Origin: a virus
IMG/VR virus record: IMGVR_UViG_3300044641_009468
Location: 1-27,304 of that record
DNA length: 27,304 nt
Strand: one strand, 5' to 3'
The translations under genes and the position numbers were made by a program. The notes under the pieces are model-generated. The model was not told the DNA's origin and made no database searches. It worked only from the letters and a program-made list of their open reading frames with translations. This document shows, in pieces, positions 2,919-27,271 of this stretch (positions within the stretch are counted from its first letter, which is position 1; every line of letters starts with the position of its first letter).

Positions 2919-3037
2919 TCACAATGGCGGGTTGTCGATGAATCCGAGTTCGATGAGCCAGCATTTGTCGAACTCCATGACAGCGAGGGATTTGTGCTGA
3001 CTTTGTAGTCCTGCTGGAAGTCCACGTGGATCATGCG
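2919..3037 (-). pseudogene. Possible C-terminal remnant of an amidase_3-type lysin
   Basis: Read on the minus strand, one frame between the endolysin end and 2919 gives HKSLAVMEFDKCWLIELGFI followed by DNPPL and TGA at 2919-2921. The pattern LIELGFIDNP resembles the zinc-ligand Glu motif near the end of N-acetylmuramoyl-L-alanine amidases (LVE-GF-NP). No upstream amidase domain is present; upstream this frame runs into the GH108 gene. It could be a relic of a replaced lysin or chance. A competing frame overlaps the endolysin stop by ATGA and gives a low-complexity 66-residue product that looks unreal. Confidence 0.3.
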
Positions 3038-3606
3038 AGGCTGAGGGCGAATTTGTAGGCGGCGTCCCAGCGGTTTACGAGGCCGCGCCAAAACTTCGCG
3101 CGAGATCCGACGGGTGGGGCGATGCGGCGCTCGTAGGTTTCGCGGGCGGCGCGGAGCTTGGTGAGAAAGGCGCGGCGGTCATCGAGTGCGTTGGAGGCGG
3201 CGAGGGTGAGCCGGCCGACGTGTCCATCGGAGGCGACGCCGAGGGCGATTTGGAAAATCTTGGCGGCTCCGCCGGGGCCTCGGTTGAAGGCGCAGTCGCG
3301 CAGGAAAGCCTCGACGCAGCTCCAGCGGCACCAGGCGGCGACGAGGTCGGTGTAGCTACAGATGTATTCCACGGCGAGGTTTTCGGCGATGTCGTGTTTG
3401 CCGAGCTGGATGAGTTCGCGGAGGTGTTCGGCCGTGCGTGGGTGGTAGCAATCGTTGATGCCAGCGACTTCGAATTTGCCGCCGCCGTCGCCGCGCGGGA
3501 GTTTGTAAATGGCAATGCGGCCGCGGGCGTCGCGGCGGGCTTCACTGTTGACGATGAATTGGCCGATTTTGAGCTGGTAGGAGGGGCGAGGTGTTGGCGC
3601 GGGCAT
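3031..3606 (-). CDS. Endolysin, glycoside hydrolase 108-like muramidase
   Basis: 191 residues. The N-terminal domain carries the GH108 signature: the putative catalytic Glu22 in VNSEARRD, then YKLPRGDGGG and FEVAGIND. A helical region with CAFNRGPGGAAK follows, and a C-terminal FWRGLVNRWDAAYKFA module resembles the peptidoglycan-binding end of the family (usual length about 170-200). It would cleave murein glycan strands at the end of infection. There is no signal peptide, so it needs the holin candidate encoded just upstream. The start at 3606 lies 12 bp after a TTTTTGACA element. A terminator at 3680-3717 separates it from the holin gene. Confidence 0.85.
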   Translation of the reverse strand: MPAPTPRPSYQLKIGQFIVNSEARRDARGRIAIYKLPRGDGGGKFEVAGINDCYHPRTAEHLRELIQLGKHDIAENLAVEYICSYTDLVAAWCRWSCVEAFLRDCAFNRGPGGAAKIFQIALGVASDGHVGRLTLAASNALDDRRAFLTKLRAARETYERRIAPPVGSRAKFWRGLVNRWDAAYKFALSLA

Positions 3607-3679
3607 GCCGCGGCGGGATTGTCAAAAAGGCCAGACACGCTGAAATGACGAAACCAAAATGAGGAAGGACTAATGCGGG

Positions 3680-3758: not shown

Positions 3759-4241
3759 TTACGGCTGAACGTCCAGGGGCTGCTTGGCGGGGAGGGCTTT
3801 GGGGGCGGGGAGGATGATGGTTTCGGCTTGGCGGATGGCGGCGGCGTCGTCGGGGGTCAAAGCGCCGCGTTTAACGGCGACATCGACGGCGAGGTTGACG
3901 AGCTGCCCGAGGCGGGCGTTTTGCTCGGGCGTGGAGCAGGCGGGGAGGATGAGGAGGCAGAGAGTGGCAATGAGCACTTTGGGGCCGTTGGTGCCGTTGA
4001 TGATGGCGCTGAGCCAGCCTTTGATGCCACGGCCGTTGGCGAGGGCGGTCAGGAATCGCCCAAAGATCATGATGCCGAGAATGAAAGCGCTGCCGTAGCT
4101 GGCGTATTTGGCGGGGAGGGCCTCGGTGACGACTTGCTGGATGGCGGGATCGACGCCGGGGATGGGCGCGGCGGTTTGGGCGGAGGCGGTGGCGAGGGCG
4201 AGGAGGCCGAATGTGAAGAGGCAGAGAAGGAAGGTTTTCAT
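3759..4241 (-). CDS. Holin-like membrane protein with signal peptide and internal lipobox
   Basis: 160 residues. Residues 1-21 form a signal peptide (FLLCLFTFGLLALATASA with predicted cleavage before Gln22). A membrane segment at about 50-68 (GSAFILGIMIFGRFLTALA) and a second hydrophobic stretch at 88-101 follow. The second ends in LPAC at 99-102, a lipoprotein-like motif, and leads into a soluble helical tail (ARLGQLVNLAVDVAV, then LTPDDAAAIRQAETIIL). The position next to the endolysin and the membrane segments suggest a holin or a fused holin/outer-spanin. Whether Cys102 is lipidated is unknown, because a lipobox normally stands at the N-terminus. The ATG at 4241 follows a TTTTTTGACA element. 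Confidence 0.6.
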   Translation of the reverse strand: MKTFLLCLFTFGLLALATASAQTAAPIPGVDPAIQQVVTEALPAKYASYGSAFILGIMIFGRFLTALANGRGIKGWLSAIINGTNGPKVLIATLCLLILPACSTPEQNARLGQLVNLAVDVAVKRGALTPDDAAAIRQAETIILPAPKALPAKQPLDVQP

Positions 4242-4867: not shown

Positions 4868-6451
4868 TTATTTGGCAATCCAGCCGGTGTTGCCGGTGCC
4901 GCTTTCCTTGACATAGAGAGTCGTGGACGCACCGCCATCGGTGCGGGTATAGAGACTGCCTATGGGAGCGGTGAGCACGCCTTCAGGGCTGCCGCTGCCG
5001 CTGCTCCAGTTCACTCCGGTTTCGGTGGTGTGGTAGCTGGCGTTGCGACTGCTGCCGCCGCCGCTGCCTTTAACCGGGCCAAAGATGGCCGCGTTGCTGC
5101 TCCAGCGGATGCCAGCTGCCTCATAGCTCGTCGTGCTGGTGTATGTGTTCGCGACGTAGAAAGCCTGCGCGTTGGTGGAATCCCGTTGGATGGCGGTGTG
5201 CGCGGCAAGGGCGGACCATTGCGCATAGTTTCCGCCGGCATTGCCTGACGTTGAAACGCGGAGAAGGCCGGTAGCGCTGAACCCGCTGGAGAAGGCGTAG
5301 TGGCCTGCGCTGGTGATGCTGAGCTGTCCGCCTCCGAGATCGGTGATGGCCCCGGACCCAATGGTGAAAGTGCCGGTGACGACGGCTCCGCTCGTCGTCG
5401 TTCGGAATCGCTGGGTGCCGCTATTCGTGATGGCGATTTCATTGCTGGCGCTGCGGTAGATGCCGGTGGTTGAATCGCCAAACGTGAGAGCGGGCGCGGA
5501 AACGGTGCCTGCGGGCAACGTGAGCACACCGGTCATCGTGTCGCCATCCAGGCGGACCATGCCGGCAGACCATGAGGTGCCGTTGTGGAGCTGCATGCGG
5601 CCTGCGGTGGTGTTCCAGATGACCATGCCAGCGGAGCCGGTGAGGGCGTCGCGCTGGGTGGTGGTGAGGTTGTTGAGCTGGAGGCCGGCGTGATCGGTGC
5701 CGGTGAATTGTTGGAGGGCGGTGAAAGTGTTGGCTCCCAACGTCGCGGTGGTGACGCTGCCGCCGAGGGAGATGGCGGAGCCGTTGAGGGTGATGCTGCT
5801 GTTCGCGAGCTTGGCATTGGTGATGGAGGCATCGGCGAGGCGGGCGATGTTGAGCGTGCCGCTGGAGATGTTGCTGGCGTTGAGTCCGATGATTTCCGCG
5901 CCAAATCCGACGAAGCCGGCCGCGCTGACGCTGACGTCACCTTGGCCAAACATGACCTCCTCATCGAGCAGGTAAGGAGCTACCAAAGCGCGGAGATTGG
6001 TCTGGCCGGCGAGGGTGAGCAGGTTGCAACCAAAAGTGGTGGTGGTGACTGCGGCGATGGCGGTGAGATCGCTGTCCAGGGGCTGATACGTGCTCGCGGC
6101 GGTGGCGGTGGTGAGGTAGCCGCTGATGCTGGCCCCGCTGGGGATGGTGACGGTGCCGGTGAAGGTAGGGCTGGCGAGCGGGGCTTTGAGATCGAGGGCG
6201 GATTGCAGATCGGTCTGCGCGCTGAGGGTGCCGGTGATGCCGCCCCAAACGGCGTTGGCGGTGAAGCCAGTGATGGTGCTGCCTTCGGCGGCGGCGATGG
6301 TGGCACCGCTGGCGATGGTGAGGGTTTTGCCGCTGGGGACGACAAGGTTTTCCGTCAGGCCGTTGTTGCTGATGGTTTTGTTGACGGTTTTGGTCTGCGC
6401 GGAGGCGGCTGCGGTCAACAAGGCGAGTGCGGCGAGGAGTCGGAGGATCAT
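4868..6451 (-). CDS. Tail fibre/adhesin-like protein with N-terminal signal peptide
   Basis: 527 residues from the ATG at 6451. A longer frame to 6838 only overlaps the preceding gene. Residues 1-18 are a signal peptide (LRLLAALALLTAAASA before Gln19). A beta-rich repetitive body full of Thr, Ser, Gly and Ala follows, with phrases such as LTLPAGTVSAPALTFGDSTT and GIYRSASNEIAITNSGTQRF that are common in phage tail fibres. The C-terminus (GSLYTRTDGG, ASTTLYVKESG, TGWIAK) is a typical fibre tip or trimerisation end. It is the expected place for the receptor-binding protein, after the baseplate-like genes. A Sec signal on a tail fibre is unusual, since fibres normally assemble in the cytoplasm. 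Confidence 0.75.
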   Translation of the reverse strand: MILRLLAALALLTAAASAQTKTVNKTISNNGLTENLVVPSGKTLTIASGATIAAAEGSTITGFTANAVWGGITGTLSAQTDLQSALDLKAPLASPTFTGTVTIPSGASISGYLTTATAASTYQPLDSDLTAIAAVTTTTFGCNLLTLAGQTNLRALVAPYLLDEEVMFGQGDVSVSAAGFVGFGAEIIGLNASNISSGTLNIARLADASITNAKLANSSITLNGSAISLGGSVTTATLGANTFTALQQFTGTDHAGLQLNNLTTTQRDALTGSAGMVIWNTTAGRMQLHNGTSWSAGMVRLDGDTMTGVLTLPAGTVSAPALTFGDSTTGIYRSASNEIAITNSGTQRFRTTTSGAVVTGTFTIGSGAITDLGGGQLSITSAGHYAFSSGFSATGLLRVSTSGNAGGNYAQWSALAAHTAIQRDSTNAQAFYVANTYTSTTSYEAAGIRWSSNAAIFGPVKGSGGGSSRNASYHTTETGVNWSSGSGSPEGVLTAPIGSLYTRTDGGASTTLYVKESGTGNTGWIAK

Positions 6452-6506
6452 GACGGGCAGAGATGGTGGAACTGAGAAGGGAGGAATGGAGGAACTGAAA
6501 AGGGAG

Positions 6507-7289
6507 TTAGCGCAGACGCTTCCAGATTTGGGCGTTGGTGGAGGCGTTGTAGTCGTCGGGGCGCACGATGCCGTTGGCGGCGTCTTCGGCGGTGGTGCCT
6601 TCGAATAAGCGCCAGGTCTGCAGCTCGTCGGCGACGTAGAGTTCCACGAGCAGTTTGGTTTTGCCGACGGTGGAGATGCCATCGAGCGCGGTGGTGCCGC
6701 CGCCGGTGAGGGCGGTGATGGCTTTGTAATACAGCGGCGCGGAGGGCGTGGGCTGGGTGCTGCTGATGACGGCTCCGTCCGTGCTGCGGGCGACATCGGA
6801 GAGCACCATGAAGGGCACCCATTGGCTGCTGCGGACATCGCCGGAGATGTCCAGCTCGATTTGCAGGTGGCCGTAGGCTTGGGCGATGCCGGCGGTGAGC
6901 AGGGCAGCGAGGTCGTTGCCGCTCAGATCCAAAGTGCCGAGGTAGAAGCCCGCAGGATCGTCGGTGAGATCGGTGGCGGCGTTGTCGTCGAGATCGGCGG
7001 GCTTGTCCCACGCGTCGTCCTCGATGGCGGCGAGGGGATCGGCGAGGTGATCGTTCCACGGCTTCAGCACGGCGCGGAGCGTGGTGCCTGCGGGGAGGAG
7101 GATGGCTTCGTTGTCCTGGTAGGGATCAAAGACGCGCAGGCGGAGCTGCGGGGTGTCGTTTTGATTGGCGGTGAGGACGGCGGCCGGGGGGATGCCGTAG
7201 GCGGCCTCGGTGCCGCCAAAAGGGGTGTGCCCGCCCATGCTGGTGACGAGGCGGCCGGTGCGAAAGTTCAGATACGCGGTGAAGGTCAC
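6507..7289 (-). CDS. Baseplate/fibre-attachment-like structural protein
   Basis: 260 residues from a GTG at 7289, with a TTTTTGACACC element 11 bp upstream. The N-terminal part is beta-rich (LRLRVFDPYQDNEAILLPAG, FYLGTLDLSGNDLAAL). The middle has HLQIELDISGD and WVPFMVLSDVA. The C-terminal part contains TLYYKAITAL-like stretches and a short helical end (DDYNASTNAQIWKRLR). The order (distal tail, this gene, fibre) and the beta architecture suit an upper baseplate protein that carries the fibre. No family is recognised with certainty. The first ATG alternative (MGGHTPFGG) would remove a conserved-looking strand, so GTG is preferred. Confidence 0.6.
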   Translation of the reverse strand: MTFTAYLNFRTGRLVTSMGGHTPFGGTEAAYGIPPAAVLTANQNDTPQLRLRVFDPYQDNEAILLPAGTTLRAVLKPWNDHLADPLAAIEDDAWDKPADLDDNAATDLTDDPAGFYLGTLDLSGNDLAALLTAGIAQAYGHLQIELDISGDVRSSQWVPFMVLSDVARSTDGAVISSTQPTPSAPLYYKAITALTGGGTTALDGISTVGKTKLLVELYVADELQTWRLFEGTTAEDAANGIVRPDDYNASTNAQIWKRLR

Positions 7290-7342
7290 GCGGGCGCGTG
7301 GGTGTCAAAAAGCCAGACGGGGAGACTGTGAGACGGGAGACG

Positions 7343-7382
7343 GGCAGATTGACCGGAGTGACCTTAATGACCTGAGTAACGG
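7343..7382 (-). repeat. 9-bp GTCA-type spacer repeats
   Basis: On the minus strand after the stop of the 7383 gene: GTTACTCAG, GTCATTAAG, GTCACTCCG, GTCAATCTG in 9-bp register. A block of GTCTCCC-like units (7315-7342) follows and ends at a TTTTTGACACC element. Confidence 0.7.
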
Positions 7383-7775
7383 TCAAGCGGCCGCTTTGGC
7401 CTCCAACGCTTTCACGCGGGCTTCCAGCGCGGTTAGATCGGGGGCGGGGAAGCGCGCGGCAGGGCTTTTCACGGCGTCGGTGAAGCGGGTGAAGAGGGCG
7501 GCCAGCGCGGCATGTCCGGCGCGGTAGGCAGCGGCGTCGATGGCGGTGTCGATGTCGCGGAGGAGGTCTTCGACGTTGCCGGTGCGCTCCACGGTGATAT
7601 GGAGGTGCGGGAGGATGCCTTGACGGAGAAAGCCCATGGTGAGCGCCGTGGCGTCGCCAGATCGGAGATCGTTGGCGCTGGGCTTCACGGGGCGGAAGCC
7701 GCGGGCGCGGAGGCTGTTCACGACTTCGACGGGCCAGCCGGAGGTGATGAGTTCGGCGTGTTCTTCGGGGGGCAT
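7383..7775 (-). CDS. Tail-region protein with C-terminal coiled coil
   Basis: 130 residues from the ATG at 7775. A GTG at 7793, six codons earlier, is possible and would give an N-terminus MNNEFP like that of the G chaperone's alternative start. Residues 1-50 include PEEHAELITSGWPVEVVNSL; the middle has LPHLHITVERTGNVEDLLRD. The C-terminal DLTALEARVKALEAKAAA is a short heptad coiled coil. The size and place between distal-tail genes suggest a minor tail or assembly factor. The function is unknown. Confidence 0.6.
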   Translation of the reverse strand: MPPEEHAELITSGWPVEVVNSLRARGFRPVKPSANDLRSGDATALTMGFLRQGILPHLHITVERTGNVEDLLRDIDTAIDAAAYRAGHAALAALFTRFTDAVKSPAARFPAPDLTALEARVKALEAKAAA

Positions 7776-7786
7776 GGGAAATTCGT

Positions 7787-7807
7787 TGTTCACGCTTGAG
7801 CGTGGGT
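7787..7807 (-). repeat. Spacer hairpin copy 1
   Basis: CACGCT-TG-AGCGTG is a perfect 6-bp stem around 7791-7804, and GAACAACGAA follows on the minus strand just before the 7775 start. A near-identical copy stands before the 12952 start (12967-12988). Confidence 0.65.
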
Positions 7808-7810
7808 TTG

Positions 7811-7843
7811 GACCGGATTGACCGGAGTGACCCGAGTGACGAG
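7811..7843 (-). repeat. 9-bp GTCACTCCG/GTCAATCCG spacer repeats
   Basis: After the TGA of the 7844 gene the minus strand reads GTCACTCGG, GTCACTCCG, GTCAATCCG, GTCC in 9-bp register. It leads into the hairpin at 7791-7804. Confidence 0.8.
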
Positions 7844-8233
7844 TCAAACCACCTGCGCGAGGCGGAAGTTGTTGAAATAGGTGTATGAGGTCAGGGGCGT
7901 GGGACGCGGGGTCTTGGACTGGCTGTAGCTGTTCCTGGCTTCCAGCTCGGTGCTCGTCGTGACCCCGGTGCTGTGATTGTAGGCGCGCCTCGTGTATTTG
8001 ATGCGCAAAGGCTCCGCTTTGGTGGTGCTGATGGTGATGTCGGCGGATTCGGAGCTGAAATCGCTGCCGAAAAGCGTGCTGATGAGCGTGTCGGTTCCGA
8101 GCGGATGGCGGGCCATCTGAAACCATGAGATGGTGCCGGGCGTGACGGGCGCGAATTGGATCTTCACGCGCGCGGGCGCAGGCACCGGGGAGACGGCGCG
8201 CCAGTCGTTCGGATTGGTGGCAGGGGGGCGCAT
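7844..8233 (-). CDS. Small distal tail protein, unknown
   Basis: 129 residues from the ATG at 8233. The frame is open further upstream, but there it is translated from 7-bp repeats and from the end of the preceding gene. The protein is beta-rich (ARVKIQFAPVTPGTISWFQM, DITISTTKAEPLRIKYTRRA, SYTYFNNFRLAQVV). An RAYNHSTGVTTSTELEARNS segment could be a loop. It sits between two other small beta proteins in the distal-tail block. No family is recognised. Confidence 0.6.
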   Translation of the reverse strand: MRPPATNPNDWRAVSPVPAPARVKIQFAPVTPGTISWFQMARHPLGTDTLISTLFGSDFSSESADITISTTKAEPLRIKYTRRAYNHSTGVTTSTELEARNSYSQSKTPRPTPLTSYTYFNNFRLAQVV

Positions 8234-8244
8234 GAAAAGGAAAT

Positions 8245-8296
8245 GACGAAGGACGAAGGACGAATGACGAATGAGGAATGAGGAATGAGGAATGAA
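8245..8296 (+). repeat. 7-bp tandem repeats (GAATGAG type) in spacer
   Basis: Consecutive 7-mers GACGAAG, GACGAAG, GACGAAT, GACGAAT, GAGGAAT, GAGGAAT, GAGGAAT, GAACGGG fill the gap between the 8233 start and the 8307 stop. Confidence 0.85.
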
Positions 8297-8306
8297 CGGG
8301 ATGGTG

Positions 8307-8933
8307 CTACCAGGTGACCCAGTTGGCGGTGCCGGTGGCGGTGCCGTTGTCTTCGGCGCGGGCGCTGATGTTGTTGTAGCGCGTGCGGTTGACGAGGGCA
8401 CCGGCCTGCCAGCGGAACAACTCAATGAAACGCTTCGTGTTCGTGCTGGTCTGCGCGGAGCTGTGGGCCTCGATGGTGAGGTTGCTGCTGGTGGGTGACT
8501 TGATGGTGAAGCCGGTGACGAAATTGTCTGCGTTGGTGCTCAGCGTGGTATCGACGACGAGATAAACGATCTGCAGGCTGGTGGCATGAACGGTGAGCTG
8601 CGGCGGGGTGCTGGCATTGATGGCGGTGCCACCGATGAAGGGCGTGGTGGCGTTGAAGCTGCCGTTGCTGACGGTGATTGCGGTGGAGCTGACGAAGGTG
8701 GGCTGCCAGTTGCTCCAGATCTCACTCGCTCCGGCGGCGGTGCTGGCGGGCAGTTGGAGTTTCAGCCCGCCACCGCTGAGGGTTTGAGCGCGCTGGAGGC
8801 CGTCGATGTGCAGCTCCACGCCGAGCAGCGGCTCCAACTGCTCCAGGATGCGGAGGAGCTGCTTGGAAGTCACCAGCGGCCCCATGCGGGCAATGCGGAT
8901 TTTTTCGCGGCCTTCTTTGTTGCTGGCTTTCAT
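8307..8933 (-). CDS. Distal tail/fibre-like protein
   Basis: 208 residues. The N-terminal helical part (SNKEGREKIRIARMGPLVTS, LLRILEQLEPLLGVELHI) is followed by a beta-rich Ser/Thr body (TAITVSNGSFNATTPFIGGT, LQIVYLVVDTTLS) and ends WVTW. The helix-then-beta design is common in phage proteins that dock on the tail tip and display a beta domain. It lies 15 bp downstream of the large tail protein at 8949. No catalytic motif is visible and no family is assigned. Confidence 0.6.
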   Translation of the reverse strand: MKASNKEGREKIRIARMGPLVTSKQLLRILEQLEPLLGVELHIDGLQRAQTLSGGGLKLQLPASTAAGASEIWSNWQPTFVSSTAITVSNGSFNATTPFIGGTAINASTPPQLTVHATSLQIVYLVVDTTLSTNADNFVTGFTIKSPTSSNLTIEAHSSAQTSTNTKRFIELFRWQAGALVNRTRYNNISARAEDNGTATGTANWVTW

Positions 8934-8948
8934 GCTAGTTGTTCGCCG

Positions 8949-10370
8949 TTAGCCCGGTGTGGTCGGGCGTTGGTTGCGGAAGCTGAAGGTGCAGAGCCAG
9001 AGTTGCTGGCCGGGGATTTGTTCGGTTTGCAGATTGGCGAGGTTCCAGCCTTTCGGGAAATGCACGGTGTCATTGGTGCCGTAGAGCCCGACGTAGCTGA
9101 CGGTGGGGGCATCTTCCGGCGTCCAGCTATCACCACTGCCGAGCATCCACATGGGCGGCGTCTCGGTGAGGATCATGGTGTATTGCACCCCGACCTGCGG
9201 GATGTCGAACTCCACGTTGCCTTCGATGGCGGTGAACTTTGTGGACGCATCAAGCGTCATGGCGTCGTTGGAATACACGTAGCTCTCCCATAACGTCGAT
9301 TCGAAGTTTTCCACGCGCACCGCTTGAGCCGCGCCCTGCTGGCGGCGTGTGGTGAGTTTGATTTCGCCGTCCACCTGGTTGAGGCCTGCGAGCGTGAGAT
9401 CCAGCTCATAGTAGCCGGTGAGGTTGAGGGCTTCCGCCTCGATGCAGCCGCGCGCCTGGCGCTTTTGGCGGGCGATGATCCACATGCGGTCATAACCCGC
9501 TTTGATCGGCGTGATCGTCGCGCCGGTGCCGTCGCTGCTCACATTGAGCACGGGCACGATTTTCGTGAGCGAGCCCAGCAAGCCGCTGGTGATGTTCGTG
9601 GTGAAATCAATGGCGGCACCTCCAGCGGTGGCGGCGAGCTTGAAGGTGTTCGTGCTGGCATCGCGCACGTAATACATGGTGAAGGTGGAAAGGCCTGCGC
9701 CGCCGGTGATCTGCGGTAAAAAGACTTTTTGACCATCGCTCCAGCCGTGGGCGGTGACGGTGAGGACATCGGTGCTGGCGACACCCGTGGCGCGTTTGGC
9801 GGCGAGGGGATCGGCGATCACGAAGGAATCCGCGTCGATGCGAGCGAGCAGGTAGTTCTTCGCTTTCGTCACGCCACCGAAGCCGCTGCTGTAGTCAACT
9901 TGCACCAGTCGCCCACCGGTGAGGCCGTGGGCGGTTTTGCTCCACACATCCGTGCTGGCGGTGGCGGAGACGCCGGTGATGGCGGTATCCGTGATCTGCG
10001 CGCCTTTGAGGAACTGCGACGCATTCGGCGTGCTGGTGTAAAAGCGGCGCGCAATGGTGTCCCAGCCTTCCTGCGGCAGGTCCTCGCCGTGATCGAGCAT
10101 CTTGGAGGTCACGCCATCGGGCAGGCCTTCGGCGGTCACGGGGATGATCCACACGCTGCCGTCTTGCTGGGCCTCGCGCTCGATGATGCGCATGCCAGGG
10201 TAGCCATCCGGCGCGGAGCCGAGCGGATAATCCGTTTCGTCATCGGTGACAAAGCTGCATTGCAGCACATCCGGCCCGCCAGAGGACTGGCGCAGCGCGC
10301 GGCCTGCGCGGCGGAAGCCGGGCTCGCCGTGGGTGAGGATGGCGGAGAGGACGGGATTGGGTGGAGGCAT
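8949..10370 (-). CDS. Tail protein with duplicated beta module
   Basis: 473 residues. Two similar modules occur in tandem near residues 135-260. Both start with TAHG (KTAHGLTGGRLVQVDYSSGF; VTAHGWSDGQKVFLPQITGG) and end in a strand-rich F-V/K-LA segment (SFVIADPLAAK; TFKLAATAGGA). The remainder is beta-rich, with LTGYYELDLTLAGLNQVDGE and a C-terminal TFSFRNQRPTTPG. The place just after the tape measure corresponds to lambda M/L or a distal tail hub gene. The repeats resemble a small beta module common in phage tail proteins. Precise role unknown. Confidence 0.6.
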   Translation of the reverse strand: MPPPNPVLSAILTHGEPGFRRAGRALRQSSGGPDVLQCSFVTDDETDYPLGSAPDGYPGMRIIEREAQQDGSVWIIPVTAEGLPDGVTSKMLDHGEDLPQEGWDTIARRFYTSTPNASQFLKGAQITDTAITGVSATASTDVWSKTAHGLTGGRLVQVDYSSGFGGVTKAKNYLLARIDADSFVIADPLAAKRATGVASTDVLTVTAHGWSDGQKVFLPQITGGAGLSTFTMYYVRDASTNTFKLAATAGGAAIDFTTNITSGLLGSLTKIVPVLNVSSDGTGATITPIKAGYDRMWIIARQKRQARGCIEAEALNLTGYYELDLTLAGLNQVDGEIKLTTRRQQGAAQAVRVENFESTLWESYVYSNDAMTLDASTKFTAIEGNVEFDIPQVGVQYTMILTETPPMWMLGSGDSWTPEDAPTVSYVGLYGTNDTVHFPKGWNLANLQTEQIPGQQLWLCTFSFRNQRPTTPG

Positions 10371-10389
10371 GAAATTGAAGATTGGAAAA

Positions 10390-10410
10390 GGGAAATGGGA
10401 AATGGGAAAT
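10390..10410 (+). repeat. 7-bp tandem repeat GGGAAAT x3
   Basis: Three perfect GGGAAAT units at 10390-10396, 10397-10403 and 10404-10410 fill part of the 48-bp gap between the tape measure and the next gene. Confidence 0.85.
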
Positions 10411-10418
10411 GCCGCATG

Positions 10419-12041
10419 TCAGTTCTTCGTGAGGGCGTCGGCCATGGCTTGCGGCAGCAGGGTGAGGATGCGGTTCACGGCTTCGTTGGCATCGATCGGG
10501 CGCGCGGGGGCGGGCTCGGTGGCGTTGCGGGCGTTTTGCGGGCCGATCTTATCCTGCGCGGCGCGCTGCTGGAGCTGGTCAAAGGCGGACGGGGTGCGCT
10601 GGAGCTTGTCGAAGGCGCTTTCGCTTTGCTGCAGCTTGTCGAAGGTGGAAGGACCGCGCTGGAGATCGTAGAAATCGCTGAGGCCGCCCATGCGGCGTTC
10701 GCTTTGCACGCCGCGGATGCGCGTGGCGCGACCACCGTTGTCGGCGCGCTCTTGCAGGTTTTGCATGCGGGTGGCGAGCGCGGTGGCCTCGGTGCGGTTG
10801 AGGCCGTTGTCGCGCATGAGGCGATCGCGGCGCTGCTCGATGGCGACTTCGCGCTCCGCATCTTCGATGGCACGTTTGCGGCCGGTGGCGCGGGCTTCGA
10901 GGATCTTGAATTCCTGCGCGGTGCTCATCACCGCCTGTTTGCGCTGCTCATTGGCGCGCGCGGCTTCATCGGCCTCGCGTTTGGCGGTTTGGGCGGCGCG
11001 CTCCGCTTCCTGCGTGGCGCGGCTCTTGAGCTGCGTGAGCTGCTGCTGGATGTCCAGGCGGCGGCCTTCGATGTCGAGCGCGGCGCGTTGATCGAGCGCG
11101 CCTTCGGCTTCTTTTTGGCGTTCCTCCGCGCGGATGGCGGAAAGGCGGCTGTAGAGCTCGGTGATTTGCCCCTGGGTGTCCAGTTCCTCAAAGGCGAGCT
11201 TGGCGCGCTGCTCATCGAGCTGCTTTTGAGCGTCGAGGAGATCGCGCTTTTCTTCCGCGGCGGTGATGGTTTCCAGATCGGCCTTGATTTGGTCCTTCGC
11301 GTATTGCGGGACCGGCATGGCGTCGATTTTGGCGAGCTTCTGTTTCAGCACCATCTGGCGCTCGATGGCGTCCGCCGCTTCATCATCTCCCTGCGCGCGG
11401 AGCGCTGCGGCGCGGGCCTGCGCGGTGCTGGAGGCCAGCGCCTGCTCCACCATGTCGCCATAGATCATGCCCAGCTCACCCTGGAGCGCGGCGAGTTCGC
11501 GGGTTTTTTCCTCGGCGGACTTGTCGCCCATGAAAGTCTCACTGATGAGATTGAAAAGCTGGCCGCCGCTGGTGTAGAGTTTGGCCTGCTCCGCCTGGGC
11601 GGCGGTGATTTTTTGCGTGAGGGTATCGATGCTGCCACTCACGTTTTCGACATCGATGGTGGCGAGCGTGCGGGCCAGTGTGCCGCGATAGGCCTCCATA
11701 TCGGCCATCATGGAGGCAAAGCTGGTCTTGCTGGCCTCTGCGCCCATGTAAAGCGCGCCACCGATCGCGGCGACTGCGCCTGCGACGGCTCCTGCGGGGC
11801 CAAAGGCGGAGAGCATCTGCGAGCCCTGCTGCGCGAAAATGATGCTGGCGCGCGTGCCGCTCTGCATTTGCACGGCGATGTCTTGCAGCTGCATGGAGAC
11901 ATTCCCCAGCCCTGCGCCTGCACCGCCGCGGCGACCAAATTTCTGCACGTTTTGATCGAGCCCGGAGAGTCGCTTTTCAACGCGGTCGATGCCGGTGAAA
12001 ACGGCGGGGGCGGAGAATCCAAGTTCGACAACGGCGCTCAT
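10419..12041 (-). CDS. Tail tape measure protein
   Basis: 540 residues. The N-terminus (VFTGIDRVEKRLSGLDQNVQ) and a Gly/Ala hydrophobic patch (SAFGPAGAVAGAVAAIGGAL, about 78-97) resemble tape measure proteins. The long central part is alpha-helical and coiled-coil, rich in Ala, Glu, Gln and Arg (EAERAAQTAKREADEAARAN). Near the C-terminus an 11-residue repeat occurs (STFDKLQQSE, SAFDKLQRTP, SAFDQLQQRA). It follows the G/T chaperones, as in lambda. At about 1.5 angstrom per residue, 540 residues imply a tail near 80 nm; that is a family rule of thumb. Confidence 0.85.
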   Translation of the reverse strand: MSAVVELGFSAPAVFTGIDRVEKRLSGLDQNVQKFGRRGGAGAGLGNVSMQLQDIAVQMQSGTRASIIFAQQGSQMLSAFGPAGAVAGAVAAIGGALYMGAEASKTSFASMMADMEAYRGTLARTLATIDVENVSGSIDTLTQKITAAQAEQAKLYTSGGQLFNLISETFMGDKSAEEKTRELAALQGELGMIYGDMVEQALASSTAQARAAALRAQGDDEAADAIERQMVLKQKLAKIDAMPVPQYAKDQIKADLETITAAEEKRDLLDAQKQLDEQRAKLAFEELDTQGQITELYSRLSAIRAEERQKEAEGALDQRAALDIEGRRLDIQQQLTQLKSRATQEAERAAQTAKREADEAARANEQRKQAVMSTAQEFKILEARATGRKRAIEDAEREVAIEQRRDRLMRDNGLNRTEATALATRMQNLQERADNGGRATRIRGVQSERRMGGLSDFYDLQRGPSTFDKLQQSESAFDKLQRTPSAFDQLQQRAAQDKIGPQNARNATEPAPARPIDANEAVNRILTLLPQAMADALTKN

Positions 12042-12061
12042 GATGGAAGTGAGCGGGGCGG

Positions 12062-12089
12062 GGTGTCAAAACGGCCCGCCGGAGGCGGG
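12062..12089 (-). other. GC hairpin followed by TTTTGACACC before tape measure
   Basis: On the minus strand CCCGCC-TCC-GGCGGG (12089-12075), then CCGTTTTGACACC (12074-12062), 20 bp before the tape-measure ATG. It is one of several hairpin plus T-run plus GACACC units in this genome, and it could act as a weak terminator. Confidence 0.5.
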
Positions 12090-12125
12090 AATGACCTTAG
12101 TGACGGGATTGACCGGAGTGACAGT
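12090..12125 (-). repeat. 9-bp GTCA-type spacer repeats
   Basis: On the minus strand: GTCACTCCG, GTCAATCCC, GTCACTAAG, GTCATTCCC in 9-bp register, between the end of the T frame and the tape measure. Confidence 0.8.
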
Positions 12126-12142
12126 GAAGAAGGTGCGGCTGC

Positions 12143-12183
12143 ATTCCTCATTCCGCATTCGTCATTCCCGCGCGGAGCGCGGG
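12143..12183. repeat. Hairpin and 7-bp GAATGxx repeats at the end of the T frame
   Basis: CCCGCGC-GGA-GCGCGGG (12167-12183) is a perfect 7-bp stem overlapping the last codons of T. Toward the tape measure the minus strand then gives GAATGAC, GAATGCG, GAATGAG, GAATGCA in 7-bp register. Confidence 0.65.
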
Positions 12184-12437
12184 CTCCACATCTCCCGCAG
12201 TTTCTGCCACCATCGGCCGCGTTTGCTGAGCTGGGGATCGGGCCAGATCATGGCGTGGCCTTCGAGGATGGCGGCGGTGTGGAGGAGTCCGTGGGCTTCC
12301 ACAAGCGGGAGGTGATGGAGGATGTAATCGCGGGCGGTGATGGGGCGGTGGAGGTGATCCACGCAGTGGCTGAAAAGACCGGGCGCGGCCCTTGCCACCT
12401 GCACGAGGAAGGCGTGCAGGCTCAAGGGCTGGGCTAG
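12162..12437 (-). CDS. Tail assembly chaperone T extension (expressed by -1 frameshift from the 12952 gene)
   Basis: About 91 codons with no start codon of their own near the upstream stop. The sequence is protein-like, unlike neighbouring shadows: LAQPLSLHAFLVQVARAAPG, LHRPITARDYILHHLPLVEA, then WPDPQLSKRGRWWQKLREMW. The frame is -1 relative to the upstream gene and begins at the slippery heptamer GGGAAAC (12437-12443). This is the lambda G/GT arrangement, in which a few percent of ribosomes make a longer chaperone whose T part recruits the tail tube to the tape measure. The predicted fusion is about 263 residues from the ATG start. An unrelated separate gene is unlikely because there is no initiation codon. 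Confidence 0.75.
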   Translation of the reverse strand, partial: LAQPLSLHAFLVQVARAAPGLFSHCVDHLHRPITARDYILHHLPLVEAHGLLHTAAILEGHAMIWPDPQLSKRGRWWQKLREMWSPRSARE

Positions 12438-12952
12438 TTTCCCGCGTCTTCGCGTGGCGGTGTGGCGGCGGGGCGGAGGATGGCGCGGGTGGTTTCCGCG
12501 TCTTCGATGACGAGATCCACCACGCGCAGGATCTCCAGCAGATCGGCCTCGCTGGCGGCAGCGAGCTCGGCATCGCTCCACGCATCGATCACGCTGCGGA
12601 GATCGGCGGCGTCCGGGTGCGCGTTCCATTCGGCGGGCTGATGGGTCATGAGCCAGAGGGCCAGCACGGCATTGCGCAGGCGCGGGGTGCTGCGACCGCC
12701 CAGAGCGCGAAGCAGATCAGCGGTGGCGTGCTCGTGCTCGGCGGTGCCTTCCGCGCAGGCGGCACGGCGATCCATAGCGGCCTGCTGCGCGGGCGTGAGT
12801 GGCGCGGCTTTGAGGCGGATGAATTCAAACACGGATTCGCGGCTGAAGGTCCACAGCAGCGGCTTGCCGCGCCATTGGCGCGTGATGCGGGCGGCTTCCT
12901 CGCGCCGGGCATCGGCGGCGGGGGTGGGGTCGAAGGTGTCGTCGGTGAGCAT
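12434..12952 (-). CDS. Tail assembly chaperone (lambda G-like)
   Basis: 172 residues from the ATG at 12952. A GTG at 12973 would add MNNEPKP but lies in a hairpin-plus-tail element also found before another gene. The protein is mostly helical and Ala-rich (ARREEAARITRQWRGKPLLW, SRESVFEFIRLKAAPLTPAQ, AELAAASEADLLEILRVVDL). It sits directly upstream of the tape measure and ends in the codons GCG GGA AAC TAG, which form a -1 slippery site. Size, helical make-up, place and frameshift all fit the G/gp13-type chaperones that coat the tape measure during tail assembly. Sequence similarity to a named family is not obvious. Confidence 0.75.
   Translation of the reverse strand: MLTDDTFDPTPAADARREEAARITRQWRGKPLLWTFSRESVFEFIRLKAAPLTPAQQAAMDRRAACAEGTAEHEHATADLLRALGGRSTPRLRNAVLALWLMTHQPAEWNAHPDAADLRSVIDAWSDAELAAASEADLLEILRVVDLVIEDAETTRAILRPAATPPREDAGN
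12437..12443 (-). promoter_or_regulatory. -1 programmed ribosomal frameshift site G-GGA-AAC
   Basis: The minus strand reads GCG GGA AAC TAG. G-GGA-AAC fits the X-XXY-YYZ rule, and lambda uses GGGAAAG at the same gene junction. The zero-frame stop UAG follows immediately (12434-12436), and the -1 frame stays open for 91 codons. Confidence 0.85.
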
Positions 12953-12966
12953 GGGTTTGGGTTCGT

Positions 12967-12988
12967 TGTTCACGCTTCAGCGTGGGAT
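12967..12988 (-). repeat. Spacer hairpin copy 2
   Basis: CACGCT-TC-AGCGTG stem (12971-12984) followed on the minus strand by GAACAACGAA, before the start at 12952. It differs from the copy at 7787-7807 by only two bases over about 29 bp. Confidence 0.65.
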
Positions 12989-12994
12989 TGAGGT

Positions 12995-13034
12995 TTGGGA
13001 CGGGAGTGACGGGAGTGACAGGATTGACGGGGAT
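12995..13034 (-). repeat. 9-bp GTCA-type spacer repeats
   Basis: After the stop of the 13035 gene the minus strand reads GTCAATCCT, GTCACTCCC, GTCACTCCC, GTCCC in 9-bp register. Confidence 0.8.
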
Positions 13035-13799
13035 TCACCGCGGGACGCGGAAGAATTGGCGGACTTCGTTTTCCAGCTCGGGGCTGGGGTTTTCGGGGAT
13101 CAGGGCGCGGCGGGAGCTGTAGGGGTCCTTGGCGAGGATGCGGCGCGTTTTGACCTCGGCGAGGAGCTGCGCATACGCGCGCGTGGCGTTGTAGGCATGC
13201 ACCACGGGGTGCGCCGGATGCGTGAGGCCGAGCTGGAGCGCGTGGGGATGCGGCTCGGTGCCGCGACGATGGAAGTGCTGGGCAACGGTGAGGCCCTGCG
13301 AAGGCGCGAAGAAGTGAAACGCATCTGGAAACTCGATGCGGCGGCGCGGAGGCGCGCCCTCAAAGCCGGTGGCAGGGATGCCTGCGATGCTCACTGCGGC
13401 GGCGAGGGGCAGATCAGCGGTGCGGTGCAAGCGGGGGCTGGTGAGCATCTCATGCCACTCTGCGCCGGGCTGGTAGCGATAAAGGCCCTGCTCTTGAATT
13501 AGCCTGTGTGATTGCCCACGCATCATAAGGTGCAGCGCATCCATGTTGGCACACGCAGCGAGGCCGCAGAGCAGCGGGTGCAGGGGATCGGTCTTCGCCA
13601 AGGCTCCGTCAATGAAGAGCTGGTGCAGGTGACGACTGAAAAGCGTGGGCGTGCGGCTGAGTGTTTGATCCGCGATGTGAAAGCGGATGCTGGGCGTGCG
13701 GTTCTTTTCGCAGATGATGGTTTCGCGCGTTTCAATGGCGAAACCGATGCCGGCATACGCCGCGGCGGTTTTGGTGTCGGTGGTGGACCAGGTGGACAT
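13035..13799 (-). CDS. Tail-region protein of unknown function
   Basis: 254 residues from the ATG at 13799, which follows a TTTTTGACACC element by 25 bp. An in-frame ATG at 13844 would cross that element. The protein is His-rich (HHLHQLFIDG-like and HFHRRGTEPHPHALQLGLTH) with mixed alpha/beta character, and ends PSPELENEVRQFFRVPR. It lies between the tail tube candidate and the G chaperone, where lambda has no extra gene. No motif allows a functional call. The conserved operon position suggests a virion or assembly protein. Confidence 0.55.
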   Translation of the reverse strand: MSTWSTTDTKTAAAYAGIGFAIETRETIICEKNRTPSIRFHIADQTLSRTPTLFSRHLHQLFIDGALAKTDPLHPLLCGLAACANMDALHLMMRGQSHRLIQEQGLYRYQPGAEWHEMLTSPRLHRTADLPLAAAVSIAGIPATGFEGAPPRRRIEFPDAFHFFAPSQGLTVAQHFHRRGTEPHPHALQLGLTHPAHPVVHAYNATRAYAQLLAEVKTRRILAKDPYSSRRALIPENPSPELENEVRQFFRVPR

Positions 13800-13879
13800 G
13801 GAAGAATCGAAGTGATGGCCCGCGGGTGTCAAAAACCGGAGCACGCTGCTGCGAAGCCGCGAAGCGAACCGTTAACAAC

Positions 13880-13919
13880 AAACACGAAAAAGCCCGGTGC
13901 TCGTGAGAGACACCGGGCT
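13880..13919 (-). terminator. Intrinsic terminator after the tail tube candidate
   Basis: On the minus strand AGCCCGGTG (13919-13911), an 11-base loop, CACCGGGCT (13899-13891), then TTTTCGTGTTTG. The stem is a perfect 9 bp. It would reduce transcription into the later tail genes after an abundant product. Confidence 0.85.
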
Positions 13920-13940
13920 GAGAACAACACACTGGAACGA

Positions 13941-14381
13941 TTACGGAGCCGCGAGGGCGGCGGCGGATTTGACGAAGGGACGCACGGTGCCAGGGACGGT
14001 GCCGGAGAGGCCTTCATCATTGCTGGTGCGTTTCGGATTGCCCGCGATGACTGCCATGTCTGCGGTGACGACGAAGCCGAGGATGTCACGGCCTTCGGCG
14101 ACGTTGACGAGATCGGTGAGAGCTTGACCGGGATGCACGTTGCCGAGGCCCCAGCATTCGCCGAGGGCATTGAGGCGCGGGCGCAGGTTCAGCTCAAAGG
14201 TGAGGCGCGGATCGCGATACTCGGCATACACGACGGCATGGGTGTCGCCTTTGTGCAGGACTTCATCGCGCTCGCCCGTCCAGGTGCAATCGAGGATGAG
14301 GGCACCTTCCTCATCGGCGTGGACATCGGCGGGCTTCACGCCGTGGGAGATGATGGGTTCAACGTGGGGATCAGCAGGCAT
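13941..14381 (-). CDS. Candidate major tail tube protein
   Basis: 146 residues. The central part is beta-rich: GALILDCTWTGERDEVLHKG, AVVYAEYRDPRLTFELNLRP, then GRDILGFVVTADMAVIAG and NPKRTSNDEGLSGTVPGTV. The C-terminus is helical and small (VKSAAALAAP). It lies where lambda V (tail tube) stands, after the tail terminator and before the G/T chaperones. Its own terminator 22 bp downstream fits a highly expressed structural gene. The assignment rests on position, size and beta pattern rather than on a recognised signature. A decoration protein is an alternative. Confidence 0.5.
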   Translation of the reverse strand: MPADPHVEPIISHGVKPADVHADEEGALILDCTWTGERDEVLHKGDTHAVVYAEYRDPRLTFELNLRPRLNALGECWGLGNVHPGQALTDLVNVAEGRDILGFVVTADMAVIAGNPKRTSNDEGLSGTVPGTVRPFVKSAAALAAP

Positions 14382-14433
14382 GAGCGGAGAAAGGTGAGGG
14401 GTTCAGCGTGGAGGGGGTTTGAATCAGCCGCGA

Positions 14434-14922
14434 TTACGAGCCTGATGCGGCGGCGGTGAACTGGAGTCCGCGCGCCTTGAACAGGATGCACTTCGTGGTG
14501 CTTTTCGCGACGATGAACGGCTTTGGGTGCATGCCACTGGCGATGTCGGCCGTGGGAGCGATGCCGCCTGCGGTGCCGCTGAGCACATAGACCGGAGCCA
14601 CCATGGACAGCGTGGCACCGAGCGTAAGGTCATCGTCTTCATAAACCACGGCGAGCACTTGATCGACTGCGGCGGTGTGTGCGGCGAGTCCTTCGACTTC
14701 GGTGGTGCCGGTGCCATTGGCATCGGCGAGCTGCCATTTGCCATTGCCATCGAGATAGACGGCCTGCCCGGCGGTGATGGCGACGCCCGCGACGGCGTGT
14801 TTGAATTTGGCGCGCGCGCCGGTTTTGAAGGACGCGGCGGTGACGGTTAGATCAGCGGCGTGGGAGCCGATGGCAAGCGCAAGGGAAACGACGAGGGCGA
14901 AGAGGCGGAGGAGGTGCTTCAT
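14434..14922 (-). CDS. Signal-peptide-bearing DUF2190-like (capsid decoration type) protein
   Basis: 162 residues from the ATG at 14922. An ATG at 14961 would read repeat-like spacer. Residues 1-22 form a signal peptide (LLRLFALVVSLALAIGSHA, cleavage likely before Ala23-Asp24). The mature part has the pattern of small beta-barrel decoration proteins: AGQAVYLDGNGKWQLADANG, then VEGLAAHTAAVDQVLAVVYE and GATLSMVAPVYVLSGTAGGI. That family normally has no signal peptide. It lies between the tail terminator and the tube candidate. It may be an exported virion component or a protein recruited from the host. The family call is moderate. Confidence 0.6.
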   Translation of the reverse strand: MKHLLRLFALVVSLALAIGSHAADLTVTAASFKTGARAKFKHAVAGVAITAGQAVYLDGNGKWQLADANGTGTTEVEGLAAHTAAVDQVLAVVYEDDDLTLGATLSMVAPVYVLSGTAGGIAPTADIASGMHPKPFIVAKSTTKCILFKARGLQFTAAASGS

Positions 14923-16793: not shown

Positions 16794-17381
16794 TCAAACC
16801 TCCGGCGCGAGCGTGGTGCGGGCGTCGTGGCGGTAGGTGTGCAGGATACCATCGATGTGATGCGCGCGCGTGACATGCTGCCGCGCCTGCGCCACCCAGG
16901 CGGCGTCTTCGCCGTAGTTGGTATCTAGGAACTGGCAGTGGCGGATTTTCGTGCGCCGCCAAGCGCAGACGTGCCAGGGGCCACGCGTGATGCGCTGGTC
17001 ATCCGGGCCGTCGAGGATGAGCTTGTCATCTTTGGCCCCGAGCTGGAAATGCACGGTGAAGGGCTTGCCGTTGTAGATGGCAGCCTGGTCAAAGGTGATG
17101 ACATCGGCCTCCGGGTGCTCGATGATGGCCTCAATCAGACGCGTGACGTAGTCCTCGCTGACATCATCGTCATCGTCCACGAAAGCAATGAAGTCGCCGC
17201 GGGCGGAATTGAGCAGCGCTTGGCGTTTCATGCCGATGCTGCGGGCGCGGTTGTCGTAGAGCACGAGGTGCTCGATGTGTTGAGATCCACGCTGGCTGAT
17301 GATTTTACCATGAAGATGGCTGCCTTGCACGACGCGGTTCCAGCAGGCGGGTGTGAGGATGGAAAGGAGGGGAGGTTTCAT
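16794..17381 (-). CDS. Family 2-type glycosyltransferase (single domain)
   Basis: 195 residues. PPLLSILTPACWNR is the first strand of a GT-A fold. IGMKRQALLNSARGDFIAF leads to VDDDDDVSEDYVTRLIEAII, the metal and nucleotide-sugar site (Asp cluster at about 69-73). GPWHVCAWRRTKI and YGEDAAWVAQA resemble the late acceptor-side ED motif. It is shorter than free-standing GT2 enzymes (about 230-300), so it may be a minimal domain. The start ATG overlaps the stop of the upstream two-domain transferase (ATGA), so the two are co-translated. The product ends GAG GTT TGA inside a TTTGACACC element. The acceptor is unknown; the neighbouring capsid or tail proteins are candidates. Confidence 0.8.
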   Translation of the reverse strand: MKPPLLSILTPACWNRVVQGSHLHGKIISQRGSQHIEHLVLYDNRARSIGMKRQALLNSARGDFIAFVDDDDDVSEDYVTRLIEAIIEHPEADVITFDQAAIYNGKPFTVHFQLGAKDDKLILDGPDDQRITRGPWHVCAWRRTKIRHCQFLDTNYGEDAAWVAQARQHVTRAHHIDGILHTYRHDARTTLAPEV

Positions 17382-19063: not shown

Positions 19064-19072
19064 GTGACGTAG

Positions 19073-19179: not shown

Positions 19180-20073
19180 TTACGAGGTCGGCGTGGTGAA
19201 GAGCTTGACGGCACCGGTGACGGCGGCGGAATAGCCGAAGAGCACGTGGGTGTTGATGAACCACTTGCCCGCGGCGCGGTTCCAGTGGCGGGTGTAGAGC
19301 ATGCTGATGCCGCTGTCGGGATCGACATACTGCTCGAAGGCGGAATACTCTTCCGAGGGCAGGTAGTTGCCGAGGTTGCGCATAGCAACCGCGATGCCTT
19401 CCTTGCCAGCGCAAAAGCCAATGAGGCTGATGCTGTTCGTGGGCAGGACATCGCTGGAATAGATGTCAAGGCCCATGAGACGGCCGAGCATGCCCTCCTT
19501 GATCGCCATGTTGTCACCGCGATTGAGTGCGAGGGTGATCTTGTCATCACCGAGCATGGCGGCCTCCACGTCCATGTTCACGACGAGGGATTTAGGGCCA
19601 CGGATGCCCGCCTGAAGCATCGCCTTGCGAATGGCGATGAGCTGCGTGCGGCTGTAGTTGGCGGAGGCAGTGGTAAGGACAGCCGCGCCGAAGTTCGTGG
19701 TGGTGAGGACGCTGAACACGTCCTGAAGGAGCTTGTTCGCGGTGGCGTTGGCGAGCTGAGCGCCAAACTGCTCCAGACGGCTGGCATTGCTGCTGTCGGC
19801 GAGCTGCTGCGGCGTCACGTCGATGGGCGTGATGTAGCGTTTGTCCACATTCACCGTGATGGCGGAGATGGTGCCGCCAGTGCCTTCATAGGCGGACGCA
19901 CCCTGCACGAAGGAGGTGGAGGTGACATTGCCGAAGAGCGGCACCACGACGGCAGCGCCAGGCGTGGCGACTTCCGAGGAGATGTCGGTGGAGAAGACAT
20001 TCAGCGGCAGCAGAATGTCCACGAGCTGCTGGAAAACAGTCTGGCCGAAGAGGGTATCGTTGAACGTATTCAT
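19180..20073 (-). CDS. Major capsid protein (HK97-fold type)
   Basis: 297 residues. Typical features: an N-terminal arm (FNDTLFGQTVFQQLVDILLP), TPGAAVVVPLFGN, TVNVDKRYITPIDVTPQQLA, a spine-helix-like LEQFGAQLANATANKLLQDV, IRKAMLQAGIRGPKSLVVNM, and a late RHWNRAAGKWFINTHVLFGY segment. The order protease/scaffold then capsid matches lambda-like heads, and no other gene here fits. It lies 41 bp after the protease-scaffold stop and is followed by a strong terminator, as expected for the most abundant product. Confidence 0.85.
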   Translation of the reverse strand: MNTFNDTLFGQTVFQQLVDILLPLNVFSTDISSEVATPGAAVVVPLFGNVTSTSFVQGASAYEGTGGTISAITVNVDKRYITPIDVTPQQLADSSNASRLEQFGAQLANATANKLLQDVFSVLTTTNFGAAVLTTASANYSRTQLIAIRKAMLQAGIRGPKSLVVNMDVEAAMLGDDKITLALNRGDNMAIKEGMLGRLMGLDIYSSDVLPTNSISLIGFCAGKEGIAVAMRNLGNYLPSEEYSAFEQYVDPDSGISMLYTRHWNRAAGKWFINTHVLFGYSAAVTGAVKLFTTPTS

Positions 20074-21206: not shown

Positions 21207-21240
21207 GCTCGCCGCGAGGTGTCAAAGGACGTGGAAGTGA

Positions 21241-21298
21241 AGACAAAAAGATGACAGACAAAAACATGCTGATTTTTTTGTCTGTCATTTTTTTGTCT
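21241..21298. terminator. Long AT-rich palindrome between portal and protease genes
   Basis: Arms at 21241-21264 and 21274-21298 each contain AGACAAAAA-ATGACAGACAAAAA in inverted orientation, with about one mismatch over 24 bp and a loop of about 8 bases. T runs lie on both sides, so it could act as a bidirectional terminator, an RNase III site or an attenuator. Within each arm AGACAAAAA is repeated. Its low GC is striking in this genome. Confidence 0.6.
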
Positions 21299-23322: not shown

Positions 23323-23375
23323 GGTGTCAAAGGCCCGGCGGTGGACCGCCATGACGGGATTGACCGGAGTGACAG
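23323..23375 (-). repeat. Spacer unit: 9-bp repeats, hairpin, TTTGACACC
   Basis: On the minus strand: GTCACTCCG, GTCAATCCC, GTCATGGCG, then a GGCGG-TCCA-CCGCC hairpin (23350-23337), then GGGCC and TTTGACACC (23331-23323), 11 bp before the 23311 ATG. All the recurring spacer parts are present in order. Confidence 0.7.
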
Positions 23376-27191: not shown

Positions 27192-27271
27192 GCGCTTTCT
27201 GTGTCAAAGCGCATCAAATCCGCGCAAAACGCAATCCTTGCGCCTAAACCATGCGCAAACACGTTTGCGCA
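27192..27271. promoter_or_regulatory. GCGCAAA repeats and palindromes upstream of terminase (possible cos/pac or operator)
   Basis: TGCGCAAAC-AC-GTTTGCGCA (27252-27271) is a perfect 9-bp inverted repeat. Related words are CGCGCAAAAC (27221-27230) and TTGCGC (27238-27243). GCGCTTT...AAAGCGC (27192-27198/27206-27212) forms a second inverted repeat around TTTGACAC, 4 bp before the small-subunit start. Repeats beside the small terminase gene are typical of packaging-site binding sequences. Confidence 0.5.

Follow-up and report, generated by a model that had tools for sequence, protein, structure and literature searches.

The window analysed here is a whole virus record of 27,304 bases (IMG/VR IMGVR_UViG_3300044641_009468), with late genes almost all on the - strand and in a lambda-like order: terminase, gpW-like gene, portal, ClpP-type protease, capsid, two glycosyltransferases and head-tail joining genes, followed by the decoration protein, tail genes, tape measure, baseplate genes, adaptor, fibre, xis-like gene, holin-like gene and endolysin. 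A tyrosine-recombinase-like open reading frame, identified by reading the sequence, lies at 1462-2505 on the + strand and suggests that the phage is temperate. Three late proteins, a tail fibre that is the probable receptor-binding protein (RBP), a capsid decoration protein and a holin-like protein, begin with predicted signal peptides. From comparison with relatives, a large uncultured group of Verrucomicrobial tailed viruses appears to export the RBP fibre, and often the capsid-coating protein too, via cleavable signal peptides. The features concerned were:

4868..6451, - strand: tail fibre or probable RBP, 527 amino acids, encoded separately and following the BppU-like adaptor (match to a PHROG tail family, E 9.9e-10; relatives; position)
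6398..6451, - strand: predicted fibre signal peptide, MILRLLAALALLTAAASA followed by Q (leader anatomy and relatives)
14434..14922, - strand: capsid decoration (cement) protein, 162 amino acids (AlphaFold2 model with a predicted local distance difference test, pLDDT, of 87; fold matches from Z 12.2 to 6.4)
14857..14922, - strand: predicted decoration protein signal peptide, MKHLLRLFALVVSLALAIGSHA followed by AD (outside the best fold matches)
3759..4241, - strand: holin-like membrane protein, 160 amino acids, with a leader, one transmembrane segment and a further hydrophobic stretch that ends in a lipobox-like LPAC (sequence; a divergent relative in phage G008)
4179..4241, - strand: predicted leader of the holin-like protein, MKTFLLCLFTFGLLALATASA followed by Q
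6507..7289, - strand: adaptor, a candidate BppU-like upper-baseplate protein without signal peptide (family alignments; fold from homologous members, Z about 8)

A sequence-only reading of this DNA had proposed that these three proteins share a basic n-region, a hydrophobic core and a small-residue cleavage site, and this anatomy, of the Sec/signal peptidase I type, was recovered as a prediction in all three. The fibre starts at 6451 (-) and continues with QTKT after the leader (cleavage before Gln19), the decoration protein starts at 14922 (-) and continues with ADLT (cleavage before Ala23), and the holin-like protein, whose gene falls just beyond the coordinate span of that reading, starts at 4241 (-) and continues with QTAA (cleavage before Gln22). 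Genes were called with a home-made procedure and leaders were detected with our own rule, which required a basic n-region, an uncharged hydrophobic core and agreement with the -3/-1 rule. Fifteen of the 481 window ATGs having 40 open codons scored, and the only true structural or lysis gene starts among them were those of the fibre, the decoration protein and the holin-like protein. The background of the rule was about 2.5% of ATGs, or about 0.75 chance matches expected per 30 genes, and three leaders among the roughly 30 window genes were only mildly above it. Since chance is not negligible in a single genome, the case for the leaders rests on relatives. Applied to 42 structural-region genes of phages 16-3 and lambda, the rule picked out a single one, Lom, whose annotation is that of an outer host membrane protein.

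The genes preceding the fibre in these phages encoded proteins of a single family, some of whose members were tied to the rest through intermediates only. A model of this family (first row L190, from phage G006; confident over residues 1-130) matched the N-domain of TP901-1 BppU (3uh8, Z 8.1; 4v96, Z 8.3) and the 80alpha baseplate (6v8i, Z 8.3), and also the Sf14 and Bas63 neck proteins (Z 9.3-9.4) and other beta-sandwiches (Z 6-7); the modelled match is to a phage beta-sandwich class and not to BppU uniquely. The adaptor of the window was joined to the modelled branch through intermediates only. In TP901-1 the BppU gene is followed by the gene for the RBP, BppL, and the window fibre, because it comes directly after a BppU-like adaptor, is likely an RBP. 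Position and the tail-family PHROG match make binding to a host receptor probable, and we consider it likely that this fibre is the RBP of the virion.

The presence of a leader followed the arrangement of the adaptor and fibre genes. The IMG/VR adaptor scan gave 37 loci, of which L225, a candidate third fusion, turned out to encode an unrelated tail protein and was dropped, leaving 34 loci with a separate fibre and 2 fusions. A signal peptide was found on all 34 separate fibres directly after the adaptor (32 by the rule, 2 by eye), whereas the adaptor-fibre fusions L195 and L199 had none. The C-terminus of L199 shared 45-50% identity with the distal ends of fibres that bear a signal peptide, which are therefore virion-type fibres; the evidence from L195 was weaker (short repetitive matches). 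In Verrucomicrobiales genomes a short adaptor was followed by a signal-bearing RBP in 11 of 11 loci, compared with none of 10 loci with a long adaptor (at least 395 amino acids, presumed fusions by length); five further adaptor loci, cut off or unresolved, stand outside these counts. The same procedure at other gene ends gave a signal-like start in 17.6%. An upstream in-frame ATG at 6838 was rejected as the start of the window RBP: the extension would overlap with the adaptor gene, and 6451 is the start found in relatives too. Matches to the fibre in Cellulophaga, Maribacter and Pseudomonas phages lay downstream of the N-terminus, and those proteins start differently, with no signal peptide. 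Additional signal-bearing proteins of 137 to 257 amino acids adjoin the RBP in four genomes (G007 21476-22195, G009 16992-17765, G011 7379-7792 and the G041 locus 33124).

The RBP leaders changed rapidly and kept their properties. Among 29 RBP N-termini, Gln followed the cleavage site in 28 and the -1 residue was Ala, Gly or Ser in all; the exceptions to the usual anatomy were one acidic residue in two leaders and Leu at -3 in six. Pairs of RBPs with about 90% identity over the first 18 mature residues had leaders only 28% identical (15.5% expected from composition alone). Because of this difference, selection is judged to act on the properties of the leader and not on its sequence, an evolution like that of signal peptides and hard to square with a structural anchor. 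A need for disulphide bonds was rejected as the reason for export: cysteines were few, and no more frequent in leader-bearing members.

The protein first described as “DUF2190-like” scored 13.3 bits against Pfam PF09956 (Phage_cement_2, DUF2190), below the curated cut-off of 24, although 22 of 50 family members matched this domain at E <= 0.01 (best 1.1e-5). Its AlphaFold2 model matched the decoration folds of HFTV1 (Z 12.2), Adjutor (10.7), Pam3 (10.6), FCWL1 (9.2), T1 (9.0) and lambda gpD (6.4), and it is by this modelled fold, not by PF09956, that it is assigned as a gpD/cement-fold decoration protein, with a predicted place on the capsid surface of virions. The leader formed a separate helix in the model (residues 2-19), and the best structural alignments began at residue 28 or later. 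A weak profile match to the neck fibre gp82 of phage A-1(L) (E 0.013) was set aside, the cement fold match being far stronger. The family is large, with 411 confirmed matches in IMG/VR, and includes p009 of Rhizobium phage 16-3.

Most members of the decoration family, p009 among them, begin with M followed by AD[LI][ST][IV]TA or close to it. The leader was present in 24 of 84 classified distinct members and substituted exactly for the initial Met; the processed N-terminus would therefore equal that of leaderless relatives after Met removal. These leaderless relatives start at the cleavage site and encode no leader. The 21 distinct decoration leaders tabulated were 18-29 amino acids long and differed in sequence; each had K or R in the n-region and none had D or E, with Ala at -1 and a small residue at -3 in 21 of 21. 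The decoration genes of the window and of locus L002 shared 95.5% DNA identity in the mature part and 75% in the leader. Comparison of homologous N-termini, which the sequence-only reading had proposed, found leaders kept on separate RBPs and on a subset of decoration relatives.

In known genomes, leader-bearing decoration copies were found in UBA11399, a Verrucomicrobiaceae metagenome-assembled genome and Prosthecobacter (all Verrucomicrobiales), and in G041 and G092 of the same order. Leaderless copies were found in Rhizobiales, Hyphomicrobiales, Anaerolineae and Marinobacterium; a copy in Planctomycetia had an unclear start that was not signal-like. Leaderless copies were also present in phages with a portal close to that of the window (the L030 and L026 groups), and the leader can therefore be gained or lost between close relatives. 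No fixed number of gains was retained: the decoration-domain tree needs at least 6 changes, of which its starred branches force only 2. One leader-bearing protein (L083, 1025-1504) grouped on the proteobacterial-type side of the tree (support 81), where members otherwise lack a leader, and may have gained its own independently. Two decoration-family matches, L085 and L087, lay in one locus, the sole such case seen, and a match in a Verrucomicrobiales genome (G033:C76:98080-98496) contained one TGA.

Across relatives, the rule found signal-like N-termini in 10 of 12 fibres, 3 of 3 holin-like proteins and 20 of 75 decoration proteins, as against 1 of 199 distinct N-termini in the remaining structural and lysis families, among them terminase, portal, protease, capsid, connector, tape measure and adaptor. 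Because of this distribution, the set predicted to be exported is that of the outermost, last-added parts plus lysis proteins. The following proteins of the window, in addition to the adaptor, had no signal peptide:

3031..3606, - strand: endolysin (PG_binding_3)
10419..12041, - strand: tape measure protein (PHROG)
19180..20073, - strand: major capsid protein (Pfam PF25209, PHROG)
21297..22946, - strand: portal protein (Pfam PF05136)

The leader of the holin-like protein was also kept in its 38% identical relative from G008 (MKTLIAFVALLFAASLASA followed by Q). It is real but unremarkable, as holins are membrane proteins and such a leader is ordinary for a membrane-bound protein. No holin family in Pfam or PHROG matched this protein, though its position and hydrophobic segments fit a holin. 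Both the window protein and the G008 relative have an internal LP[AS]C with no ATG before the motif. The arrangement of a leader, one transmembrane segment and a hydrophobic segment ending in L-P-[AS]-C (window 3759-4241; L165 3806-4270) resembles a fusion of a holin and a small lipoprotein, and separate small lipoproteins were present in other phages of the group (G006, G007, G011 and G041).

Sec targeting of the fibre and the decoration protein is well supported by these comparisons, and a functional Sec leader on both is, in our judgement, highly probable. The proposal that the phage exports some structural proteins has good comparative support. The suggestion that host surface proteins had been captured is unlikely for the decoration protein, given its cement fold and its membership of a large phage family; a host origin of the leaders alone may hold. 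Assembly of part of the virion in the periplasm may be the outcome of export, and is the best of several mechanisms considered.

According to this mechanism, the fibre and the decoration protein would be made as Sec pre-proteins, with the leader directing both to the host Sec translocon. Signal peptidase I would remove the leaders, and the mature fibre (from Gln19) and decoration protein (from Ala23) would be held in the periplasm, while heads, tails and the leaderless BppU-like adaptor would be assembled in the cytoplasm. The compartments would mix at lysis, when the RBP would attach to the adaptor sockets of the tail and the decoration protein to the expanded capsid. The leader anatomy, its function conserved despite turnover, the exact junctions, the folds, the gene order and the rule of separate and fused RBPs can be read from the sequences; we infer that the proteins are translocated and cleaved, form a periplasmic pool and attach at lysis. 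The whole explanation by export and then attachment could equally well prove right or wrong. Attachment at or after lysis is our preferred mechanism, unproven and slightly short of an even bet. The general form, in which tailed double-stranded DNA phages of Verrucomicrobiales complete their virions outside the cytoplasm, with the RBP and often the decoration protein stored in the periplasm via host Sec and added at lysis, is put forward tentatively, the doubts somewhat outweighing it. Late attachment is plausible for decoration proteins because Dec of phage L binds mature P22 capsids in vitro (PMC7602432).

Several observations weigh against periplasmic storage and late attachment. The strongest evidence against a need for export comes from close relatives (the L030 and L026 groups), whose fused RBPs and leaderless decoration proteins show that cytoplasmic versions work and that assembly can do without export. 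In leader-bearing decoration proteins, the mature part was about neutral over its first 18 residues (mean net charge +0.12), where acidic residues would be expected in well-exported proteins. The verrucophage P8625 was reported without signal peptides in any protein (PMC4642752).

The chief rival, which we consider unlikely, gives the exported proteins a role on the producing cell and not in the virion: free RBP might mask or occupy receptors, excluding superinfecting phages or stopping progeny from binding to debris, for example, while the decoration-like protein might be periplasmic or at the surface of the lysogen or infected cell. In its favour, export is the best-supported step, further signal-bearing proteins lie just after the RBP in G007, G009, G011 and G041, and close relatives differ in whether the decoration protein has a leader. 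However, the L195 and L199 fusions tie the RBP to the baseplate, and no other separate RBP was seen in the adaptor-fibre loci. The decoration gene, moreover, lies within the conserved head-tail block, and no second copy of it was found in the leader-bearing loci examined.

An uncleaved hydrophobic anchor, plugging a separate RBP into the adaptor, would account for the leaderless fusions, in which none is needed, but is decidedly improbable. Fit to a conserved socket should conserve sequence, yet the leaders were near-random at 90% mature identity, and 28 of 29 kept an A-x-A type site with Gln after it; like leaders also occur on the holin-like protein and on the decoration protein, and no anchor is needed by leaderless relatives of the latter. 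Membrane-associated assembly, in which the leader would tether the RBP and the decoration protein to the Sec translocon as they are made, so that particles would be finished at the inner membrane, with cleavage perhaps late, fits leaders on the outermost parts only; it is very improbable, as these phages gave no other sign of membrane-bound assembly and neither protein carried a sorting domain from Pfam or PHROGs. That the hydrophobic N-termini arose by chance in a GC-rich genome, or that start codons were misassigned, can barely be credited: the background (about 2.5% of ATGs, or 17.6% under the looser next-gene procedure) leaves some room for this, but the pattern persisted in all 45 separate RBPs and in 24 distinct decoration leaders despite sequence change, and the window decoration gene, for which a true start downstream of the hydrophobic segment had been considered, has no start codon at its mature end.

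A protein search with the portal found 0 relatives among 50,697 phage records and 45 in IMG/VR, and neither a megablast of the window nor a protein search with the adaptor gave a match in the same phage records. The portal scan of genomes gave no host, but the decoration-protein alignment scan did. Within the structural operon, the two glycosyltransferase genes (16794-17381 and 17378-19067) lie directly after the capsid gene. The motif TTTGACA occurred 12 times in the window (2.1 expected; 0 of 100 shuffles reached 12), for example on the - strand at 27202-27208, 23325-23331, 21220-21226, 7303-7309 and 3620-3626. It lay mostly just upstream of gene starts, at exactly -20 in five genes. The same spacing was enriched in related Verrucomicrobial phages and prophages (L143, G011, L201, G041 and G092), whereas lambda, 16-3 and two proteobacterial loci showed no such enrichment. 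A role as the -35 box of the gene it precedes was ruled out; the motif may mark gene starts in this host group.

Tailed phages are taught to assemble in the cytoplasm. If their outer virion parts were exported in this group, assembly of tailed phages would gain a second compartment, and annotation and secretome pipelines would take phage RBPs for host surface proteins. More speculatively, co-resident phages could draw on one another's periplasmic RBPs, or these RBPs could escape cytoplasmic defences that block tail assembly, as Tai does (PMC11364771). Searches of PMC open full text, which takes in few subscription papers, turned up no account of an exported RBP or decoration protein in a tailed phage, and a study of Bacteroides diversity-generating retroelements treats the absence of a signal peptide as a sign of phage origin of target proteins (PMC6199706).

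These phages resemble several known systems in part. Like P8625, the first lytic verrucophage, they are tailed phages of Verrucomicrobia, P8625 being a siphovirus; unlike in P8625 (PMC4642752), signal peptides were predicted in them. They share the use of host Sec with lambda Lom and with secreted and signal-arrest-release endolysins (PMC7143992), but those proteins act in lysis or in the envelope and are not virion parts. The decoration protein has the same fold as the gpD-fold cement proteins (HFTV1, Adjutor, Pam3, T1, TW1, lambda gpD and p009 of 16-3), to which the subset described here, all Verrucomicrobiales where a host could be named, adds a signal peptide; its gene lies between a U-like gene and the tail genes and not beside the capsid gene. 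Virion coat proteins made with Sec signal peptides are familiar from filamentous phages (pIII and pVIII), which assemble in the inner membrane and extrude, but the phages described here are of the lambda type, tailed and with a portal, a terminase and an endolysin. In gene order and adaptor fold they resemble BppU and BppL of TP901-1 and 80alpha-type baseplates: an adaptor with a possibly BppU-like fold lies directly before the RBP gene, and both fused and separate RBPs occur. BppL of TP901-1 has, to our knowledge, no signal peptide, whereas in the loci studied here every separate RBP starts with one.

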